Part shown: positions 6,542 through 28,600 of the stretch, piece after piece | Layout: each line of letters opens with the position of its first letter | How positions within the stretch are numbered: position 1 is the stretch's first letter | Source: a virus | Virus record (IMG/VR): IMGVR_UViG_3300010354_000321 | Span: 1 to 32,916 of that record | DNA length: 32,916 nt | Direction: 5' to 3' (one strand) | Made by a program: the position numbers and the translations under genes | Notes under the pieces: generated by a model | The model's input: only the letters and a program-made list of their open reading frames with translations | The model's database searches: none | Told to the model about the DNA's origin: nothing

Positions 6542-6854
6542 GGTGTTCTCCGATCATCCAACCCCCGTTCCATGGTTGGTTGATTGCGCCCCTTGAGGGG
6601 GTGAACGTCCTTTCAATGTAGCAAGCAATCGAGCGTCTGCTTCTGGCTCAATTAGCAAATCTTTAAGGAGAAGAGGGAGCCGACAATGGGGCTTCAATCC
6701 ATCGTTTGGTACGGCATTTAACTAAGGGTAGGCCCTTAGCCCTCTCACCTCGTGGTCTGCAGAAAGGTGCCTGATCACCTTTCGTTGGTAACGCTGGCGC
6801 CAGCGTGCTTCGCGAAAGCCCTGAAACTATAAAACATTTCTTAAGACAAGGCAA
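6542..6854. other. Non-coding hairpin array
   Basis: No gene is visible in 313 bp between two minus-strand ORFs. Perfect inverted repeats lie in a row: CTAAGGG/CCCTTAG (6722-6728 with 6733-6739), GAAAGGTG/CACCTTTC (6762-6769 with 6776-6783), the 16-bp palindrome ACGCTGGCGCCAGCGT (6791-6806) and GCTT/AAGC. This may be a processed leader or structured RNA upstream of the DUF4278-like gene, or a replication or packaging site. Confidence 0.5.
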
Positions 6855-9437: not shown

Positions 9438-11300
9438 ATGGAAGACCAAGCCGTAGATCTTGGCCATGTAGGGGAAGCTGGCGTTCGCGCTGACGGTCTC
9501 CAGAACGTGCTCATTGGCATGGGCACCAATCGCGACAAGAGCAAGTACACCACCACTCAGCCCATCACCTTCCTGACACAAGAGGAAGTGGAAAGCCTTT
9601 ATGGCGAATGGCTGCCTAAGCGCATCGTTGACATTTATGCCGACCAGGCCACGCGCAAGGGCTTCAAAGTTTTGTTCGGCGGAGAGGGCGTTCGAGCTCA
9701 AGCCGTTGCGGGCATCGAGCAGATCATCGAGGATCTCTACATCCTCGAGCATTTGAATCTTGCTGCGAAGAATTCGCGCCTCTATGGAGGCGCCTGCATC
9801 CTTCTCTACATCGATGACGGACGCCCGGCTTACATGCCCGTGGACAAGCGCAACATCCGTCGCGTGGAAGAGCTCGAATGTCTCGACCGCTGGCAGATTG
9901 CGCCAGTGATCAATGAGGAAAACTTATACGACTATTCAAAAGCAACGTATTATCAAATCATTTCTGGCGACCTCATCGCCCAACCACAACTCACCTACAT
10001 CCACAAAGATCGCATTCTGCGTTTTGACGGGGACTGGCTGCCTTATCGCGTGAGGCAGCGGAACTATGGCTGGGGCATGAGCAGCCTTCAGACGGTGTAT
10101 GACAGCTTCCGTCATTATTGGACCGGCCTGAATTCTGCGGCAACACTGCTCACCGAATTCGACATCTTTGTCCATAAGGTGAGAGGCCTGGCTTCGATGC
10201 TGGCCGCTGGCAAGGAAGGCGCCATTCGTGACCGCTTGCAGATCAACGACATGAGCAAGAGCATCTATCGCGGCTACGCGATTGATGCGGAGAAAGAAGA
10301 GCTCCAGTTCATCTCGCGGCAGTTTGGCGGCATTGGCGAAGTGATGGAAAAGCTGCGCGTTGACATTATTGGCGCATCGAAAATCCCTCATACAGTGCTG
10401 TTTGGCGAAAGCCCTGGTGGTCTTGGCTCCACTGGCCGTAGCGAAGAGCGGGACTTTGCCAAGACACTGGCTGATTATCAAGCAGCCCATTTCAAGCGCC
10501 CCTTGAAAAAGCTGATGGAATACATCCTGCTGAGCAAGGAAGGCCCCACTCAAGGACGCCTGCCCGAATCATGGCGCGTTTCCTTCAATCCATTGTTCGA
10601 GCTGAATGAGCGTGAAATGGCTGACGTGCGTGCTCGCACGGCAGCAGTGGATGGTCGCTACATCCAACTGGGAGTGCTCACTCCTCAGGAAGTGGCAGAC
10701 GCTCGTTATGGCGGCAGCGAATGGAGCATGGAAATGACCCTCGATCCATCCGTAGTGCGGGAGCTTCCCCTTCAAGCTGGGAGTGGTTCCACTCAAGCCA
10801 GGGGTGAGTTTGCGGTGCCTCCTGGCGGTCGCGATCCGCTGGACGAAGCAAATGGCACGCTGCCAATGGATGGGAGCCGTGAAGTGCAGGACGATGCTGG
10901 CTTGTTCCTGCCGGGCGATCTCGAACACAAACGCGGAGACGTTGAGTTCACTGACAAAGACCTCCACAAGAAGGCAATTGCTGCCGCAAAAGCAAAATTC
11001 AAGACATGGCCGAGTGCAGTGGCTGGCGCCTACGTCACCAGAAAATACAAGGATCTATACAAACAGAAGCATGGCTCAATGAGCGGTGCCTTCAAGGGAG
11101 AAAAGCAGACTGCCGAGTATTTCAAAGAGAACAATGATGCCATTGAGCCCCTTCAGGCTCAAGGACTCGTTTTAGGCGATTACGACGAGGCTGCTCAAAT
11201 CACGGAAGAAGACATTTCCGCTGCATTGGAACAATGGAAAGAAGAAGCGCCCGAGCGCTTCAAGGATTTCCTGGAGGCAGAGGATGTCCAGCCTGAATGA
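9438..11300 (+). CDS. Portal protein (DUF1073 type) with C-terminal extension
   Basis: The 620-aa product forms the dodecameric DNA channel at the head vertex. The N-terminus has the family entry signature DGLQNVL-IGMGTNRDK, then LYGEWLPKRIVDIYADQATR, and later LFGESPGGLGSTGRSEERDF, all characteristic of DUF1073/phage-associated portals. After about residue 510 an extension starts: AIAAAKAKFKTWPSAVAGAY, then KYKDLYKQKHG and an acidic helix. It resembles the small DUF5872-type domain and is not part of a standard portal. The gene overlaps the MuF-like gene by 17 bp. ATG 9438 is needed to keep the conserved N-terminal block. Confidence 0.88.
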   Translation: MEDQAVDLGHVGEAGVRADGLQNVLIGMGTNRDKSKYTTTQPITFLTQEEVESLYGEWLPKRIVDIYADQATRKGFKVLFGGEGVRAQAVAGIEQIIEDLYILEHLNLAAKNSRLYGGACILLYIDDGRPAYMPVDKRNIRRVEELECLDRWQIAPVINEENLYDYSKATYYQIISGDLIAQPQLTYIHKDRILRFDGDWLPYRVRQRNYGWGMSSLQTVYDSFRHYWTGLNSAATLLTEFDIFVHKVRGLASMLAAGKEGAIRDRLQINDMSKSIYRGYAIDAEKEELQFISRQFGGIGEVMEKLRVDIIGASKIPHTVLFGESPGGLGSTGRSEERDFAKTLADYQAAHFKRPLKKLMEYILLSKEGPTQGRLPESWRVSFNPLFELNEREMADVRARTAAVDGRYIQLGVLTPQEVADARYGGSEWSMEMTLDPSVVRELPLQAGSGSTQARGEFAVPPGGRDPLDEANGTLPMDGSREVQDDAGLFLPGDLEHKRGDVEFTDKDLHKKAIAAAKAKFKTWPSAVAGAYVTRKYKDLYKQKHGSMSGAFKGEKQTAEYFKENNDAIEPLQAQGLVLGDYDEAAQITEEDISAALEQWKEEAPERFKDFLEAEDVQPE

Positions 11301-17778: not shown

Positions 17779-18048
17779 ATGACTAAAAAGGAAAAGCAAG
17801 CCAAGGTGGCAAAGGTGATGCGCGAGTTCAAGGCAGGCACCTTGAAAGGCAGCGATAAGAAGCCCATCAAGAGCCGGAAACAGGCTATTGCCATTGCACT
17901 GTCCGAAGCTGGAATGAGCCGTGAGGGCAAGAGCGATGAATATTGGGACAGCTATTTCATGACCATCATTGGTGAAGAGGAAGAAGAAAAGGAAGAAGAA
18001 GAGGGCATGGAAGAAGAAATGAGCGATGGCAAGGGAAAAAAGGCCTGA
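17779..18048 (+). CDS. DUF6496-like protein, upstream part of a probable frameshift fusion
   Basis: From ATG 17779 the in-frame product is 89 aa. It has a basic N-terminal domain (KVMREFKAGTLKG, then SRKQAIAIALSEAG) typical of DUF6496 in phage head regions, then a long acidic Glu-rich stretch and a basic end (GKGKKA). The last sense codons read GGA AAA AAG GCC TGA. The heptamer A AAA AAG (18036-18042) is a known strong -1 slippery site, and an 8-bp stem begins 5 nt later. Slippage would join this product to the next frame (18042-18416) to give about 212 aa. A small acidic/basic protein at this place may be a scaffold or head-core component. Confidence 0.75.
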   Translation: MTKKEKQAKVAKVMREFKAGTLKGSDKKPIKSRKQAIAIALSEAGMSREGKSDEYWDSYFMTIIGEEEEEKEEEEGMEEEMSDGKGKKA

Positions 18049-18074
18049 GGGGCGACGCTCAAAGCTTCGCCCCT
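18036..18074 (+). other. Predicted -1 programmed ribosomal frameshift signal
   Basis: Slippery heptamer A AAA AAG at 18036-18042 is in the correct zero-frame phase. A 5-nt spacer (18043-18047) follows, then AGGGGCGA (18048-18055) pairing with TCGCCCCT (18067-18074) over an 11-nt loop. Slip site, spacer and stem match the layout of the Escherichia coli dnaX signal. The zero-frame stop TGA is at 18046-18048. Confidence 0.75.
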
Positions 18075-18416
18075 CCTGCTGCTGTTAGGGCTGCCGCTCG
18101 TCGTGGCTTAGCGCTGCGCAAGAAGCACGGCAAAGGTGGTTTGTCCACCCAGGAAGCAGGAAAGCAAGGGATTGGCAGTGGCGTGGCCAGGGCCAGTGAT
18201 CTTGCTGGGGGCGGAGCAGTGAGCTTCGAGACGATTAAGCGGATGTCTGCATTCTTCTCTCGCCATGAGAAGAACAAAAGCGGCGGCGAAGACGACGCTG
18301 GTTACATTGCTTGGCTTTTGTGGGGCGGTGATGCTGGGAGGGCCTGGGCGAATCGCATCATTAAAATGATGGAAAAACGTCAGAAGGCCGATGAGCGAAT
18401 TCGTCAGAGTGATTGA
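18042..18416 (+). CDS. Downstream (-1 frame) part of the DUF6496-like fusion
   Basis: This 124-residue extension is open from the slip site to TGA 18414-18416. It has a conserved-looking domain: PPAAVRAAARRGLALRKKHG, then GLSTQEAGKQGIGSGVARA, VSFETIKRMSAFFSRH and YIAWLLWGGDAGRAWANR. I recall this block as a common domain in cyanophage and other phage head-region proteins. The only possible local start is TTG 18141, which would cut off the conserved RRGLALRKKHG part. No ATG or GTG lies between the stop and the domain. Frameshifting from the upstream gene is therefore the best explanation; a homopolymer sequence error (A6) is the alternative. Confidence 0.7.
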   Translation, partial: GLRGDAQSFAPPAAVRAAARRGLALRKKHGKGGLSTQEAGKQGIGSGVARASDLAGGGAVSFETIKRMSAFFSRHEKNKSGGEDDAGYIAWLLWGGDAGRAWANRIIKMMEKRQKADERIRQSD

Positions 18417-18708
18417 AGAGGAAGACGAAGGCATCGGCCTGATGAAGGCGTTGTCAATTCTTTCGGCTAACGAACATCGCAACACATCACGCTGGGAGCT
18501 TGTTGAGAAGCAATGCTTCAAGAATGGGCGCCTCGATGAGACGCACATTTATGTGCAGAGCGTCTACGAACAGCCCGACCCACATTTCATTCCAACCAAG
18601 TTTTTGGTGTTTGAAGTGGAAGCCATGGCAAAGGCTTACATCATGGAAGGCATCGAAAACCAGCTCAGCGAACTGCGGGGCTATGACGATGACGATGATG
18701 ACGATTGA
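18391..18708 (+). CDS. Acidic-tailed hypothetical protein, 105 aa
   Basis: ATG 18391 lies inside the end of the previous gene (26-bp overlap). The product has a mixed alpha/beta look (VEKQCFKNGRLDETHIYVQS, then FLVFEVEAMAKAYIMEGI) and ends in seven consecutive aspartates from a GAT/GAC repeat. The tail overlaps the end of the minus-strand repressor gene by 28 bp. No family is recognised. The position between a head-core gene and the prohead protease suggests a virion-assembly role, which is inference. Confidence 0.6.
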   Translation: MSEFVRVIEEEDEGIGLMKALSILSANEHRNTSRWELVEKQCFKNGRLDETHIYVQSVYEQPDPHFIPTKFLVFEVEAMAKAYIMEGIENQLSELRGYDDDDDDD

Positions 18709-19031: not shown

Positions 19032-19058
19032 ATAAATATAACGATAAAGTATATTTAT
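19032..19058. promoter_or_regulatory. 27-bp operator-like inverted repeat covering the protease start
   Basis: ATAAATATA (19032-19040), 9-bp spacer, TATATTTAT (19050-19058); both 9-bp arms are perfect. The right arm includes the first two bases of the protease ATG (19057). The left arm is 19 bp from the regulator start. The likely binder is the adjacent XRE protein. AT-rich -10-like strings lie within it. Confidence 0.65.
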
Positions 19059-20253
19059 GAGCACCACATCTTGTCGGTACGATTTCTCTCCTATTGAGAA
19101 ATTCGAGACCACTCCCGAAGGGTATCTCCGCGTGTGGGCGTCCATCGCCCGCACCGGCATTCAGCATTACACCGATGCTGACGGTTCCATTCGACGAGAA
19201 TACCGCCCAGAGCAAGAAGTGGCGTCTCCCGAGAGTCTTGCCTCATTCGCGGGCAAGGCAATCACTTCTGAGCACCCTCCAGTGCTGCTTGATAGCGCCA
19301 ATACAAAGGACTATCAAGTGGGCTTTAGTGGCACTGAAATTGTGTACGACAACGGCTTTGTAAAGGCCGTTATGACCGTCACTGATGAAGACGCCATTAA
19401 GCGCATCATGCGCGGAGATGCAAGGGAAGTATCAGCCGGTTACCGGGTTAATTACGACCCGACGCCTGGCGTAACGGAAGATGGTGAGCATTTCGATGGC
19501 ATCCAAAAGGAAATCATCGGCAATCACATTGCTATCGTCCGTCGTGGCCGTGCTGGCCCGCAAGTGAGGCTCCATCTTGATCGTCAAGATGCTGCTGATC
19601 CCTCTCTATTTTCCAAAGAGGAAAACCAAACTATGACCGCCAAAGTCGTATTCGACGGCGCCGAGTTTGAGGTGAGCGAGAGCGTTGCTCTGGCGATCAC
19701 CAAAGAACGAGAAGACGCCAAGATGTCCTTCGAGGACATGAAGAAAAAGTACGACGAGCTCGTGGCCGCTGCCGATTCCATGAAGTCCGAAATGGATGCC
19801 ATGGAAGGCGAACTCAAGGGCAAAATGGATGCCGCCGAAGGGCGGGCCGATGCTCTGGCCGAGCAAGTCGAAGAACTCAGGGGCGAACTGGAAGCCGCCA
19901 AGCAAATCAACCTGGATTCCATGGTTGAAGAGCGCGTGGCTCTGGTTGAAAAAGCCAAAGCTGTGCTGGATTCTGATTATGAATTCAGCGGCAAGAGTGA
20001 CCGCGAAGTGATGGTTGATTCCATCAAAGCTGTGCGTGGCGACTCTGTTGCTCTGGACGAAAAGTCTGACGACTACGTCCTGGCAATGTTCGACACCATT
20101 GCTGAAGCTGGTCGTTCTGACTCTGCTACCACCGACGAGCTGCGCAAAGCCGTAGCTTCGATTGCCTCTCCCGTTGCTGCACCTTCCAGCTATATGGATC
20201 GTCTGCAGAACGCTTGGAAGGCCCCTCTCTCCATCTCCAAGGAGGCTAAGTAA
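19057..20253 (+). CDS. Prohead protease (DUF2213 type) fused to scaffold domain
   Basis: The 398-aa product has an N-terminal protease domain (about 1-190): TSEHPP (H73), REVSAGYR (S126) and IGNHIAIVRRGRAG (H157), the His/Ser/His pattern of phage DUF2213 proteases. From about residue 193 it becomes a charged coiled coil (EREDAKMSFEDMKKKYDELV and EGRADALAEQVEELRGELEA) typical of a scaffold. The protease releases scaffold and trims head proteins before packaging. ATG 19057 lies inside the operator-like repeat, with no Shine-Dalgarno sequence. A probable internal start for free scaffold lies at 19633. The next gene starts 3 bp after its stop. Confidence 0.85.
   Translation: MSTTSCRYDFSPIEKFETTPEGYLRVWASIARTGIQHYTDADGSIRREYRPEQEVASPESLASFAGKAITSEHPPVLLDSANTKDYQVGFSGTEIVYDNGFVKAVMTVTDEDAIKRIMRGDAREVSAGYRVNYDPTPGVTEDGEHFDGIQKEIIGNHIAIVRRGRAGPQVRLHLDRQDAADPSLFSKEENQTMTAKVVFDGAEFEVSESVALAITKEREDAKMSFEDMKKKYDELVAAADSMKSEMDAMEGELKGKMDAAEGRADALAEQVEELRGELEAAKQINLDSMVEERVALVEKAKAVLDSDYEFSGKSDREVMVDSIKAVRGDSVALDEKSDDYVLAMFDTIAEAGRSDSATTDELRKAVASIASPVAAPSSYMDRLQNAWKAPLSISKEAK
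19633..20253 (+). CDS. Nested scaffold protein from an internal start
   Basis: An in-frame ATG at 19633 is preceded by AAAGAGGAAAA (19615-19625), a good purine-rich ribosome-binding site 11-12 nt away. It sits exactly at the junction between protease and coiled-coil domains. The 206-aa product would begin MTAKVVFDGAEFEVSES. Lambda makes its Nu3 scaffold from within the C protease gene in the same way. The internal start is inference from position and ribosome-binding site. Confidence 0.55.
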   Translation: MTAKVVFDGAEFEVSESVALAITKEREDAKMSFEDMKKKYDELVAAADSMKSEMDAMEGELKGKMDAAEGRADALAEQVEELRGELEAAKQINLDSMVEERVALVEKAKAVLDSDYEFSGKSDREVMVDSIKAVRGDSVALDEKSDDYVLAMFDTIAEAGRSDSATTDELRKAVASIASPVAAPSSYMDRLQNAWKAPLSISKEAK

Positions 20254-20256
20254 TCC

Positions 20257-20817
20257 ATGGCCGTAACCTTTACCGCTTCGGGCACTGCCTCTGCGGGTGG
20301 TGTGCAGCAGAGCTACTCGCTCGCTCAGACCGCTCTGCAAGAAGGTCAACTGTCTGACATTCGCTCCAACACCATCACCACTCGCGTCAACGAGACTGGT
20401 GCTGTCCTTGCCTTTGGTAACGGCGTTGTGTACAACAGCGGCGGTTCCGTTGGCGAGTCTGCCAAGACCATTGCTGCTAGCGGCGACGCCTTCCTGGGCG
20501 TGAACGTTCGCACTTATGTGGACGAAGCTGCTGCTGACACCAACAGCCGTTATGGCGTGAAAGATGACCAAGTGATGAACGTGGTCAACGAAGGCGCTGT
20601 GGCTGTGTATGTGCATGGTGCTGTCAACCCCAGCACTGCTGTGCGCGTGATCCACACTGCTACTGGCACCAAGTATGCCGGTCGCTTTAACAACGCTGCC
20701 ATTGCTGGCAAGACCGCTGTTCTGTCCAACGCTCGCTATCTGACCTCCACCACTGGTGACGGTCTGGCGATCCTGGAACTGAATGGTCCTTCCTTCACCC
20801 TCACTGGCGATTCTTGA
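20257..20817 (+). CDS. Head decoration / cement-like protein
   Basis: The 186-aa product is rich in Ala, Gly, Thr, Ser and Val and likely all-beta. It begins MAVTFTASGTASAGG and ends GLAILELNGPSFTLTGDS. This composition and its place between protease/scaffold and capsid match the structural cement or decoration proteins of DUF2184-capsid phages. A strong AAGGAGG lies 7-8 bp upstream and codon use is of the highly expressed type (abundant GCT, GGC, AAC), in line with many copies per virion. Confidence 0.75.
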   Translation: MAVTFTASGTASAGGVQQSYSLAQTALQEGQLSDIRSNTITTRVNETGAVLAFGNGVVYNSGGSVGESAKTIAASGDAFLGVNVRTYVDEAAADTNSRYGVKDDQVMNVVNEGAVAVYVHGAVNPSTAVRVIHTATGTKYAGRFNNAAIAGKTAVLSNARYLTSTTGDGLAILELNGPSFTLTGDS

Positions 20818-20833
20818 TAGGAGGCCCTTAACA

Positions 20834-21736
20834 ATGTCTGAATTCCGTATGGATGACGCGGGTCTGTTTCTTGAGCGTCAGCTTGAGTACATCCGCCCCC
20901 AAGTTTTTGAGATTCAGTACGCGGATATCAAATATCCGACCGTGCTGCCTGTGACCAGCGAGGCTGGCCCTGGTGCTCAAACCTTCACCTACCGCGTCAT
21001 GGACTCCACTGGTGAGTTCAAGCTGATTGCTGACGCTGCCGATGATCTGCCCCGCGCTGACATCAGCCAAGTGGAGAAGAGCATCAACATCCGCTCCTTC
21101 GGTGGTTCCTTCGGTTACACCGTCCAGGAACTGCGTGCCGCTCAAATGGCCAACATTGCTCTTGAGCAGCGTCGTGCCGCCGCCGTGCGTCGCGCCTACG
21201 AAGAGAAAGTTGAGAGCGTTGCCTTCTTTGGCGAAAGCTCTGTGGGCCTGGGTGGTTTCCTTAACAACTCCACCGTGGACGTGGTTGCTGCTGACAAGTG
21301 GTTCAGCAACTCCACCGCCACTGAAATGCTCGAGCTGCTGAACTATGGCGTGACCGCCATCATCAACGGCTCCAAGATGAAGGAGCAGCCCGACACCATT
21401 CTGATGGCTTGGGAAGATTACAACAAAGTCAGCACCACTCGCAATTCCGATTCTTCGGACGTGACCGTGCTGGAGTACTTCCTGCGCACCAACCCCTTCA
21501 TCCGCAACGTCGAGCCCATCAACCAGCTTGATGCCGACAACAGCGTGCTCAATACCAACCGCATGGTTGTGTACAAGCGCGATCCCGAGAAAGTGCAACT
21601 GCACATTCCTCAGCCTCTGGAGCTCTTCCCCGCTCAGCAACGTGGTCTGGAATTCATCGTTCCTGCTCACGCTCGTGTTGGTGGCGTTGCTCTGTACTAT
21701 CCCAAGAGCGTTATCTACGTCCAGGCTTCTGCCTGA
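20834..21736 (+). CDS. Major capsid protein (DUF2184 type)
   Basis: The 300-aa product forms the HK97-fold shell. N-terminal FRMDDAGLFLERQLEYIRPQ and YADIKYPTVLPVTSEAG, central QVEKSINIRSFGGSFGYTVQ and YEEKVESVAFFGESSVGLGG, and C-terminal GLEFIVPAHARVGGVALYYP are the blocks expected of this capsid family. AGGAGG at 20819-20824 gives a strong ribosome-binding site for ATG 20834. An earlier in-frame start (20783) would overlap the decoration gene and is unlikely. Codon use is again of the highly expressed type. Confidence 0.9.
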   Translation: MSEFRMDDAGLFLERQLEYIRPQVFEIQYADIKYPTVLPVTSEAGPGAQTFTYRVMDSTGEFKLIADAADDLPRADISQVEKSINIRSFGGSFGYTVQELRAAQMANIALEQRRAAAVRRAYEEKVESVAFFGESSVGLGGFLNNSTVDVVAADKWFSNSTATEMLELLNYGVTAIINGSKMKEQPDTILMAWEDYNKVSTTRNSDSSDVTVLEYFLRTNPFIRNVEPINQLDADNSVLNTNRMVVYKRDPEKVQLHIPQPLELFPAQQRGLEFIVPAHARVGGVALYYPKSVIYVQASA

Positions 21737-24407: not shown

Positions 24408-24646
24408 TGCGAATTGATTATTTATGGAGCGATAGCAGCACGCTTCATGCCATCAATTGCAATGTTGATGGTTCAGCCTTGGAAGTGGGCATTTTGTGCT
24501 GTATTGCTTTAAGAGAAGCCACCATTAGAATTGCGAACGAACATCACGCCTTCATCGTTGAAGTGCCTAAGGAATTTATTTCCAGCACTGAAAGAGTGAA
24601 AGCCTTTAATGTCACGCTAAACGTCATCAGCCATGAGCAAGTATAG
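24407..24646 (+). CDS. Small hypothetical tail protein, 79 aa
   Basis: Starts within the upstream stop (TAATG) and overlaps the tail-chaperone gene by 14 bp. The product has strands and a short helix (LWSDSSTLHAINCNVDGSAL, then LREATIRIANEHHAFIVEVP). No family is recognised. Tight coupling on both sides makes it a secure gene. Confidence 0.65.
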   Translation: MRIDYLWSDSSTLHAINCNVDGSALEVGILCCIALREATIRIANEHHAFIVEVPKEFISSTERVKAFNVTLNVISHEQV

Positions 24647-25172
24647 TTTTCTTCTCGCATCGAAAGAAGATCAATACTTTCAACTCACCCCTGCCATTCG
24701 CCTGAAGAAGCGTGGCGGCTGGCTGGTTGCAGAGGCGATTGAGCAAGAGGAGATTAGCAAGGCTCAAAGCCAGGCAACCATTCGTGCTGTGCAGCTTGCC
24801 AAGCGCATTGCCACCGCCAAGGGCATTGCTCTTGATGAAGCGCTCGCCCTTCTACAGGGCGGCGCTGAAGTGTCCGACCTTGAGCTGCTCAGTGACTACA
24901 CCGAAGAAACGCTGCAGATGATCTCCAGCGGAGGCTCCGCCGAAGCTGGCAATGCTCGCCTTGTGACCACTTTCATTCGCTGCCGAGGCGAAGGCCTCAT
25001 TGGAGAGGAATGGGCGCCATTGTCCGACTGGGAGCTCGCTGACACTGAGCAAATGACTCGCCCCATCATCCAAAAAGCAATGGAATTTATCATTGCTGAG
25101 CAAGGAGCGGAGGAAAAAGCAAAAGCAAAAAAAGCTCCGCTGAAACCAGTGGAAGCGTCGCCCAAAGATTAG
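24633..25172 (+). CDS. Tail-assembly chaperone, zero-frame product (G-like)
   Basis: The 179-aa product is helical in its middle (QATIRAVQLAKRIATAKGIA and LQMISSGGSAEAGNARLVTT), with a Lys/Ala-rich end (EEKAKAKKAPLKP). Position before the tape measure and the frameshift signal at its end identify it as the lambda gpG-like chaperone. It coats the tape measure while the tube assembles. A fraction of ribosomes should slip at 25127-25133 to make a longer GT-like product. Confidence 0.75.
   Translation: MSKYSFLLASKEDQYFQLTPAIRLKKRGGWLVAEAIEQEEISKAQSQATIRAVQLAKRIATAKGIALDEALALLQGGAEVSDLELLSDYTEETLQMISSGGSAEAGNARLVTTFIRCRGEGLIGEEWAPLSDWELADTEQMTRPIIQKAMEFIIAEQGAEEKAKAKKAPLKPVEASPKD
25127..25152 (+). 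other. Predicted -1 frameshift signal of the G/GT pair
   Basis: Slippery A AAA AAA at 25127-25133 in zero-frame phase (GCA AAA AAA GCT), followed after 3 nt by CCGCTG (25137-25142) pairing with CAGTGG (25147-25152, one G-U) over AAAC. The -1 frame is then open to 25597. Phase, place and stem match the tail-chaperone signals of lambda-like phages. Confidence 0.75.
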
Positions 25173-25597
25173 AAGACGAAGCCAGGGATCAATTAAAGAA
25201 TCTCACTGATTGGAACAAGGTTTATTTCAGGCTGAGCTCTTCATGCTTGCATGATCCACGGTGGCATGCAGAAAACTTTGCAATGCAGCCAGTGACGGAT
25301 GTTATTGCGGCATTGAAATACGTTGAGAAGTACGATATCACTCAATACAACATTCAAAGCATTACGACTGCCAAGCTTGCCATGGTTGTGCTTGGCGGGC
25401 TAGCTGGCAAGAAAGCAAAAGCAACCACTGAAGATTTCCTGCCGTTTGACACTCGCAAGCTGAAGAAAGACAACGGCCTCACTGAGGAAAGCCTGGCCAT
25501 CTTCCAGAAGCTTATGAAAGAAAGGCGTCTTGATGGACGCCTCCTTGCATTGATGGCAGATGACTTAAAAAACGCTGCAATGCGTGGTGGAGATTAG
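25133..25597 (+). CDS. Tail-assembly chaperone, -1 frame extension (T-like)
   Basis: After slippage the frame reads about 154 residues: SSAETSGSVAQRLEDEARD, then WNKVYFRLSSSCLHDPRWHA, then KYDITQYNIQSITTAKLAM and a basic end. There is no ATG or GTG in this frame before the conserved part; only a TTG at 25247 could start it alone. The longer GT form (about 321 aa) would bind the tape measure, as in lambda. Confidence 0.7.
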   Translation, partial: SSAETSGSVAQRLEDEARDQLKNLTDWNKVYFRLSSSCLHDPRWHAENFAMQPVTDVIAALKYVEKYDITQYNIQSITTAKLAMVVLGGLAGKKAKATTEDFLPFDTRKLKKDNGLTEESLAIFQKLMKERRLDGRLLALMADDLKNAAMRGGD

Positions 25598-25629: not shown

Positions 25630-28600
25630 ATGGCTGGGAATGCTGCTGAGCTGAGGCTGCAGGTAACGCTGGATCGCCAGTTTTTCAGAGGTCAGCTTGC
25701 GTCCCTTGGTCAGATTGCTTCTGGCTACAGAATTCCCATTGCTGTCAGTATTGACAGGCGTTCTGTTCAAAGTGAGCTCAATAAATTAGGCGACAACATT
25801 AGAAGGAGAAACTATAGGCTCACTGTCGAAACCAATCTTTCTGCTGAAATTGCAAAAGCAGAAACTTTGGCAAATAAGCTTGCGGCGTTGGCGGGCAAGC
25901 TGAAAGTTTCTGGAGGTGGTGGCTTTGCCCAGTCAGCCCAAGGAGCTGCTGGGCTCATGGAATATATGCGCACCCAGGGACTGTCTGGGGGTGGCGGCTT
26001 TGTTGGCGCTGGACGATCCGCCCGTTTCCAAAAAGCTCTCGAAGATCTAACTGTTAAGCAGCTTCAAGGCCTGGCCAGGCAAGAAGGCATTACATTCTCT
26101 GGACTCAGAAAGTCTGCGTTGATTGACAAACTGCTTAAGGATGTCAGTCAAACAGCCATGGAGAACATCCTTGGCAATGTTGAAATGGCGCTGCGTCGTC
26201 CAGTGCGAGGAATATTCCCTAGCGGCAGAGCTGTTTCGCAAGGTCCGTTGTCCACTTTTGGCATGGGAGGACGCGCACAACAATTCCCTGTGTCTCCAAT
26301 GATGACTGGTGGAGTGGGCGCAGGAGGAGGGTCTTTTGTTCCCATGCAGGGCGGCGCAAGAGCTGCTAATCAAGCCAGTTCCGCATTAACTGGGCTCATT
26401 CAGCGAATGAGAGCACTGGGGGACTTTATTGCTGGGGAAGATCCGGCAACCCTCGCCAGAGACGCGCAACGATATGCGGTCATGCAAGGCGCGGCAGGAC
26501 GCAGCCAATATGCATTCCCTACTCACAGGATGATCTATCCTTCCTCGCCTTTAGGGAGGATCACTCCGCAAAGCAGCATGTTTGCCCAGATGGGCACTCC
26601 CATGGGACCTGTCCCCAATCTTCCTAGCCCTGGAGCAGGGGCTTTTGGCAGGGCTCTTGCGGGCGTAAGCATTCCAGGAGCCGCTCAAATTCGTGAACTT
26701 GGTAATGAGTTTGCACAAGCCACCAAGCAAGTGTTGCTCTATGGCACTGCATATAAAGCTCTGGCGTTTATGACAAGCCTGCCTGGCCAGGCTTTCAATG
26801 CAGCAAAAGGAATGGAGACATTCCGCAACCAATTAGATGCAGTTACTAAAACGAGCAATCAATTTGGCCCTTCATTGCGCTTTATTGAGCAGACCATTGG
26901 AGAACTAAATGTTCCAATTGATAGTGCCCGCAATGGCTTTGTAAGGCTATTTGCTTCGCTACAGCCAGCCAACTTTGATCCTTCCACTATTCAGGATTTG
27001 TTTAGTGGCATCACCAAGGCCTCTGCCACGTTTGGCTTAAGCGCTGATCAAGTGGATCGCGTTTTTTATGCCTTTGGGCAAATGGCCAGCAAAGGCCAGG
27101 TGATGAGCGAAGAACTCAAGGGCCAATTGGGCGACGTGCTGCCTGGCAGCTTGGCGCTATTTGCTGAAGCAGCTCAAATGAGCATGACAGACTTCACTGC
27201 AGCGCTGGAAGATGGTGTGTTCAAGGGCGATGCCATGAGGGTGTTGCTTGAGAATGTCGCTGTTTTGATGAATACAAAGTTTAGTGATGCAGCAACGAAA
27301 GCATCTCAGACTTTGCAAGGTCAGCTCAATGCAATGCAAAACTCGCTGCAGCTCATGTATGAGGCAATGCAGCCAATCGTTAATCGATTTGCGGCGGCAT
27401 TTGGGCCTGCCATTAATGCTCTTGTTAAAGATGCCACGGATGTCATCAAGGCCTTCAATCTTGGCATTTCGACCACTGGAGACTATTTCTCTCAAATGTC
27501 TCCTCGTGCGCAAGCGTTCTATTCTGCGCTAACCAATATTCTTCCCACATTGCGTGGTCTGGCCACCTCCTTGGGAAGTGCTGCCACAAATGCTGGTTAT
27601 TTCACCAGCACATTGCTCACTCTTCTCCAGCCTTTGCTGGGCGTTGGAAAAGCGGCGCTTGACTTTGCTTCCATTCCATTTGTCGCTCGCATGGGAGCCT
27701 ATGCGGCAGTCGTTGGCGTGTTGACGCAAGCATTTGTACTGTTGCGCAACACTGGCATTATTCAGGCCACTGTTGCCATGGTGAGATTTATTGCCACGAT
27801 GAGCGTGGCTCAAATCCGCGTTTACATCGCAGGTATTCAAACACTGGTGATGGTGTTTGCATCAATGGCAACGAGCGTGAACGTGGCTCGAGTGGCAGTG
27901 ACTGCTTTGAAGGTGTCTTTGGTGTCCCTTGGTGTGGGGGCAGTGATGCTTGCCCTGGATGCAGTGATTAGCAAGCTGTTCAGCATTGGCAATGCCGCTG
28001 ACAATGCAAAGATTCGGGCCGCTGCACTGACTGACGAGCTGCTGCGTGCTGCCGAGGCTGGTGATACTGCTACTGCTAGTGCGAGATTAGTTGAAGCTGA
28101 AACGCAAGTTCAGTCCATCACGCAAGCAGAAAATATTTTGCGAAGGATGCAAGGCGGCAATATGCGCCTCACAAGGGCTGAATATCAAAAATTACAACAG
28201 ACTGGACTGGCCGCTGGGATTAATTTTGGGGCTCCTCAGGCAACCACTCCAGGGCAAATTGCTGCCAATTTAGAAGCAGCACGACAAGGCAAGGTAGCTG
28301 CGTTGAATGTTGCTGGTCAAAGTCAAGAGGCGCTGCAAGATGCAGCACAAGTGGCGTTGAATCGCCAACGCCAGATGGATCAAGCAAGGCAAGCAGGCCT
28401 CAAGCCTCTGCCTGCTGGGGCTGGCGAAGAAGGGACAGCAGGCGGCAAGAAACTTGAAAAATACTACAGCGATAGGACCAAGCAGTTGCAAGATGATCTT
28501 GCGATACAGTTAAATCAGCTTGAAGTGCAGCGAAAGCAAGGTGCTCTTTCTGAAACGCAATACGCCATTCAAAGAGCCACTGCAGAATTTGCAACTGAGC

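Follow-up and report, generated by a model that had tools for sequence, protein, structure and literature searches.

A conserved candidate -1 ribosomal frameshift joining a DUF6496 protein to an unnamed helical domain between the portal and head protease genes of S-CBS4-like phages

The closest described parallels to the locus reported here are Escherichia coli dnaX, the tail-assembly-chaperone genes typified by lambda G/GT, and several phage major capsid genes. The dnaX gene (tau/gamma) shares with it an A_AAA_AAG heptamer, a hairpin 5-6 nt downstream and two products with a common N-terminus, although the dnaX protein is unrelated and its shifted product is the short one, whereas here the shifted product would be the long one. 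The Shine-Dalgarno-like stimulator found upstream in dnaX is only weakly suggested here: anti-Shine-Dalgarno pairing reaches its mean peak at -7 (-3.9 kcal/mol), but the entire acidic-coding stretch is purine-rich (about -3). Lambda G/GT and other tail-assembly-chaperone genes likewise use a -1 shift late in a small gene to yield a short form and a long fusion. The lambda heptamer is G_GGA_AAG, which is used by 17 of the 111 -1-type junctions described below; unlike the lambda pair, however, our locus lies between portal and head protease rather than upstream of the tape measure gene, and the proteins are unrelated. Frameshifting in head genes is itself established, as the major capsid genes of T7/T3, Lactobacillus phage A2 and Listeria phages A118, A500 and PSA all use it to place a C-terminal domain on a fraction of the product (PMC5009743). 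Those shifts lengthen the major capsid protein, often through the addition of an Ig-like domain, whereas the zero-frame product considered here is a DUF6496 protein, not the major capsid protein, and would gain a PHROG 2859 domain. An initial reading of the DNA, referred to below as the first-pass annotation, had known of no described case at this head-gene position; the capsid genes make that too broad (PMC5009743), while for this particular gene the statement stands, as neither an earlier description of a DUF6496/PHROG 2859 frameshift nor any paper on DUF6496 was found in the literature searched, most subscription journals lying outside its scope. The mechanism is of a known kind, and the gene is apparently undescribed.

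The window, by which we mean the whole 32,916-nt stretch analysed (IMG/VR record IMGVR_UViG_3300010354_000321), carries the locus on its plus strand at 17779-18416. A zero-frame ORF (17779..18048) encodes 89 residues, made up of a DUF6496 domain (PF20106, E=1.4e-9, 38.6 bits against a curated cut-off of 24 in a Pfam profile search) and an acidic tail, and would give the short product; it has no NCBIfam match. Checked base by base, it runs from ATG 17779 to GGC AAG GGA AAA AAG GCC TGA, with the stop at 18046-18048, and places the slippery heptamer A_AAA_AAG (18036..18042) in phase for a -1 shift; in the other ORFs of the window, in-phase [A/G/C]3-AAAG heptamers number 1 in 7360 codon positions. 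The -1 frame is open from 17976 and, taken from 18042, reads GGC CTG AGG GGC GAC GCT and onward to TGA 18416, encoding a 124-residue all-helical domain (18042..18416; PHROG 2859, E=1.7e-18, positions 164-269 of 740), here called the C-domain, which belongs to the predicted fusion only. Its earliest ATG, GTG or TTG is TTG 18141, within the conserved domain. The predicted fusion has 88 + 124 = 212 residues, with the junction peptide ...GKGKKGLRGDAQSF... across the shift. The first-pass annotation had proposed this arrangement, namely a DUF6496-like zero frame, a dnaX-type heptamer in the correct phase, a 124-residue -1 frame with no ATG or GTG of its own, and products of about 212 and 89 aa; each element was borne out, the -1 frame lacking even a TTG before the conserved start, and its frameshift interpretation proved largely right, being supported by the comparison of relatives.

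Upstream of the pair lies the portal gene (9438..11300, plus strand; PF06381, E=8e-61) and downstream, on the same strand, the DUF2213 head maturation protease (19057..20253; PHROG 530, E=4e-104; PF09979, E=1.5e-44), in the order portal, cargo-gene block, frameshift pair, DUF2213 protease, virion structural protein and major capsid protein (20783-21736), with glycosyltransferase-like cargo genes adjoining the pair. The end of the -1 frame is overlapped by a plus-strand gene of 105 aa (18391..18708), which has no PHROG or Pfam match and takes the same place in the gene order as gp020 of Synechococcus phage S-CBS4. That phage is the closest named relative, with 69.7% DNA identity over the region: its gp018 is 65.6% identical over residues 1-64 of the DUF6496 ORF, and gp018/gp019 correspond to the two halves of our locus and share its heptamer, spacing and stem (junction AGA AAA AAG GGC TAA GGGGCGA...TCGCCCC), deposited as two hypothetical proteins with no frameshift annotated. 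In the nine S-CBS4-like records tested the C-domain precedes the DUF2213 protease by about 1 kb, and in all six records long enough it is downstream of the portal gene, one of the fused type included. The portal C-terminus in the window (about 10970-11110) carries DLHKKAIAAAKAKFKTWPSAVAGAYVTRKYKDL, a stretch without a Pfam match that presumably resembles small DUF5872/DUF6321-type domains, and a glutamine-II riboswitch aptamer is found on the minus strand at 6557-6610 (Rfam RF01704, 50 bits, E 2e-9). The tape measure gene (at 25630) does not directly follow the locus; immediately upstream of it lies another -1 frameshift candidate, of the tail-chaperone type (24633-25597), with an ORF at 24633-25172, A_AAA_AAA at 25127-25133 and a -1 frame open from 25100 to 25597 that gives weak lambda-T-like matches (PF06223, E 0.11; PHROG 337, E 0.04).

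Scanning IMG/VR with both halves recovered 277 loci carrying both domains, corresponding to 127 distinct junctions, counts that are not frequencies, since resemblance to the query determined which loci were sampled. The C-domain stands in the -1 frame in 111 of these (from IMG/VR plus the isolate S-CBS4) and in a single continuous frame in 13, and 3 are singletons resembling indels; the +1-frame loci L110 and L132 and the broken L264 are isolated, look like indels and were set aside. An X_XXA_AAG heptamer is present in all 111 -1-type junctions, as A_AAA_AAG in 88, G_GGA_AAG in 17 and C_CCA_AAG in 6, the three heptamers of this form reported to be highly shift-prone in E. coli (PMC5009743). 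The count of 6 combines four identified by script with two (L091 and L200) that the script read as AAAGGGC/AAAGGGG and that were assigned by hand to an in-phase C_CCA_AAG 3 nt earlier; the stop follows 3 nt past the heptamer in 101 of the 111 junctions by script, or 103 with these two re-read, and the spacer between heptamer and stem core measures 6 nt in 107 of 109. The signal also occurs in L284, a divergent member located in a bacterial genome assembled from a metagenome and one of two loci found in a scan of genome contigs, the other (L285) being a large multidomain protein. Both halves are under purifying selection where alignable (some N-domain dN values from offset starts were left out), with dN of 0.05-0.22 against dS above 1.3 or saturated for the -1 frame compared with its relatives.

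Downstream of the slip site lies a putative stimulatory hairpin (18047..18075, plus strand), in which GAGGGGCGA (18047-18055) pairs with TCGCCCCTC (18067-18075) over 9 bp, followed by a 1x1 mismatch and three inner pairs. Its conserved 7-bp core (18049-18055 / 18067-18073) is separated from the heptamer by a 6-nt spacer (18043..18048) that includes the zero-frame stop, and the stem begins inside or just 3' of that codon; the perfect 8-bp stem noticed earlier at 5 nt downstream is recovered by counting from 18048 and extends to 9 bp from 18047. The 48-nt fold has an energy of -24.2 kcal/mol (z = -3.0); when a longer stretch of 141 nt is folded the total energy is unremarkable (z = -0.1), but the same hairpin lies within the optimal structure. 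In alignment A4, which comprises 81 distinct signals, standard pairs account for 98.9% of cells. Compensatory changes are found at three stem pairs, with a covariation score that was reached by 0 of 500 shuffles (kinship ignored) and was destroyed when pairing partners were slid by at least one column, and RNAalifold, unaided, predicts the identical helix. Pair 5, unformed in 6 of the 81 signals, varies between C-G, U-G and A-U in step with an Ala/Ser codon (p = 5e-9, kinship ignored): its 3' base sets Ala versus Ser, and the third base of the upstream glycine codon tracks it. The peptide GD-x-ESF-x-PP is encoded at the stem in both -1-type and single-frame relatives, yet all 7 core pairs are kept in 50 of 55 distinct -1-type sequences versus 2 of 10 single-frame ones (Fisher p = 1e-5, kinship ignored), so that coding for the peptide is not enough to keep the stem in place. 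In the divergent member L281 (3246-3584), C_CCA_AAG is followed 3 nt on by a stop, but no stem can be recognised where it would normally lie. Slip site and stem, whose conservation among homologues the first-pass annotation had set beforehand as a check, are conserved in more than 100 distinct relatives.

The same annotation had asked whether some phages carry the two domains in one frame, and the 13 single-frame junctions do so, encoding DUF6496, a mostly acidic linker and the C-domain continuously; these natural fusions directly encode the product expected from frameshifting. The heptamer is lost in 12 of the 13, the stop is lost and the stem usually is as well, and they differ from the -1 type across the whole junction rather than by one base. 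The exception is a single contig (IMGVR_UViG_3300013131_000066, recovered as L035, L129 and L282), in which one extra A in the slip run gives a single frame with the stem intact, and which could be a recent fusion or a homopolymer error. A structural model of a natural fusion has moderate confidence and a disordered linker (pLDDT under 50 at residues 70-79); a weak primase-like NCBIfam match to the fusion, far below cut-off and mostly in the acidic stretch, was disregarded. The C-domain tree, which is poorly resolved, implies a minimum of 5 changes between frameshift and fused states and is compatible with a single origin of the fused state. One virus record of 63 kb that carries a natural fusion has the fusion itself as its sole DUF6496 match, which suggests that the long form can suffice. 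Lineages of the single-frame type seem to do without a short form, so the short product may not be essential.

The heptamer, the stop spacing, the covarying stem and the loss of the signal in fused relatives together argue for -1 frameshifting, and on this comparative evidence we put the probability that the locus is a conserved -1 programmed ribosomal frameshift gene at roughly 0.93. Four of the features by which bacterial -1 frameshifting is judged are present, namely the phase of the heptamer, a stem at about 5-8 nt, a coding -1 frame that lacks its own start, and a conserved signal that is absent in fused versions. It is very improbable that the locus instead holds two genes, with the C-domain started alone by reinitiation, either at a CTG that shares bases with the stop (C-TGA) or at a TTG or GTG further along. 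A CTG does overlap the stop in the window (18045), as it does in 56 of the 111 junctions, and gp019 of S-CBS4 is annotated from a GTG, but the other junctions have CTA, TTA or a different codon at that position, and the GTG of gp019 cuts off conserved residues lying upstream of it. The conserved valine is written GTG in 30 of 111 only, against GTA in 51 and GTT in 28 (GTC also occurs), and before the conserved start ATG is found in 0 of 111, with no ATG, GTG or TTG at all in 76. Separate initiation therefore fails, as no start codon is conserved, and it would leave unexplained the heptamer, its phase, the spacing, the stem and their loss in fused relatives.

Slippage during transcription of the A run, rather than on the ribosome, could draw on the six or more A present in most members, but 23 of the 111 junctions read GGGAAAG or CCCAAAG, with three A only and with the same phase, spacing and stem, and an RNA stem at 6-nt spacing downstream is a hallmark of ribosomal slippage; we regard this explanation as slightly less probable still than separate initiation. 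The least credible account is that one continuous gene has been broken by an indel, through sequencing error or as a pseudogene: single-frame versions do exist, but the -1 relation recurs across many metagenomes, in over 100 distinct junctions, and is seen in the isolate S-CBS4 too, both parts are under the selection noted above, and the single-frame versions differ by the whole junction in every case other than the contig with the extra A. Recurrence across independent junctions excludes sequencing error for the family, and the miscounted A run, which had been named in advance as a refutation, is excluded at that level by independent assemblies together with S-CBS4.

If the locus is indeed a ribosomal frameshift gene, most ribosomes would read the DUF6496 frame, terminate at TGA 18046 and release the 89-aa protein, while some would pause at the hairpin and slip on A_AAA_AAG into the -1 frame, yielding the 212-aa fusion of DUF6496, acidic linker and helical C-domain. 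Both products are presumably made, with a frameshift efficiency that would fix how much short form is made relative to the long one, and the C-domain may interact with portal, protease or capsid precursors or enter the procapsid together with them.

The C-domain has no Pfam or NCBIfam match in profile searches; PDB profile searches returned nothing significant, and a PDB fold search with its AlphaFold2 model (all-helical, pLDDT 91.4, pTM 0.84) gave no match under E = 1. Among viral structure predictions, proteins bearing the names prohead protease, XkdF and portal contain the same domain. Of the annotated phages, Limnohabitans phage DC31 carries it on the N-terminal side of an XkdF-type protease, halovirus HGTV-1 within a prohead protease, HRTV-28 and HRTV-4 within portal-MuF proteins and S-CBS1 within the protein annotated as its major capsid protein, and in Vibrio phage 1.123.O it stands as a gene of its own that follows portal and MuF. 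Across haloviruses and widely differing phages (L286, L288-L296), PHROG 2859 domains are, in sum, attached to head proteases, portal-MuF proteins and capsid genes or placed beside them.

This company, together with the position between portal and protease, points to a role of the frameshift products in head assembly, which we hold to be plausible at a little under even odds. The more specific proposal of a head-side counterpart to lambda G/GT, in which frameshifting would set the ratio of DUF6496 protein to fusion, the C-domain would bind procapsid components (the portal, the protease or a capsid precursor), and the ratio would have been given up in some lineages through merging of the frames, is offered tentatively and is less likely than the general role. 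Comparable weight may be given to true frameshifting with products that serve outside the head, as an accessory and perhaps DNA-binding pair in the cargo region between portal and protease, a possibility that concerns function only. It accords with the adjoining glycosyltransferase-like genes and with giant phage PaBG, where a related small gene annotated as DNA-binding lies outside the head module beside topoisomerase genes, but it sits less easily with the repeated finding, in haloviruses and unrelated phages, of the domain fused to a protease or portal protein or directly beside one.

Conservation of the predicted frameshift gene across S-CBS4-like phages implies that the locus is likely mis-annotated in these genomes. 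The family also offers a natural experiment, in which the same two domains appear to be joined by frameshifting in most lineages and by fusion in others, the RNA signal being largely lost with fusion. Finally, the comparison highlights an unnamed helical domain (PHROG 2859, not in Pfam) whose possible role in head assembly is now open to testing.
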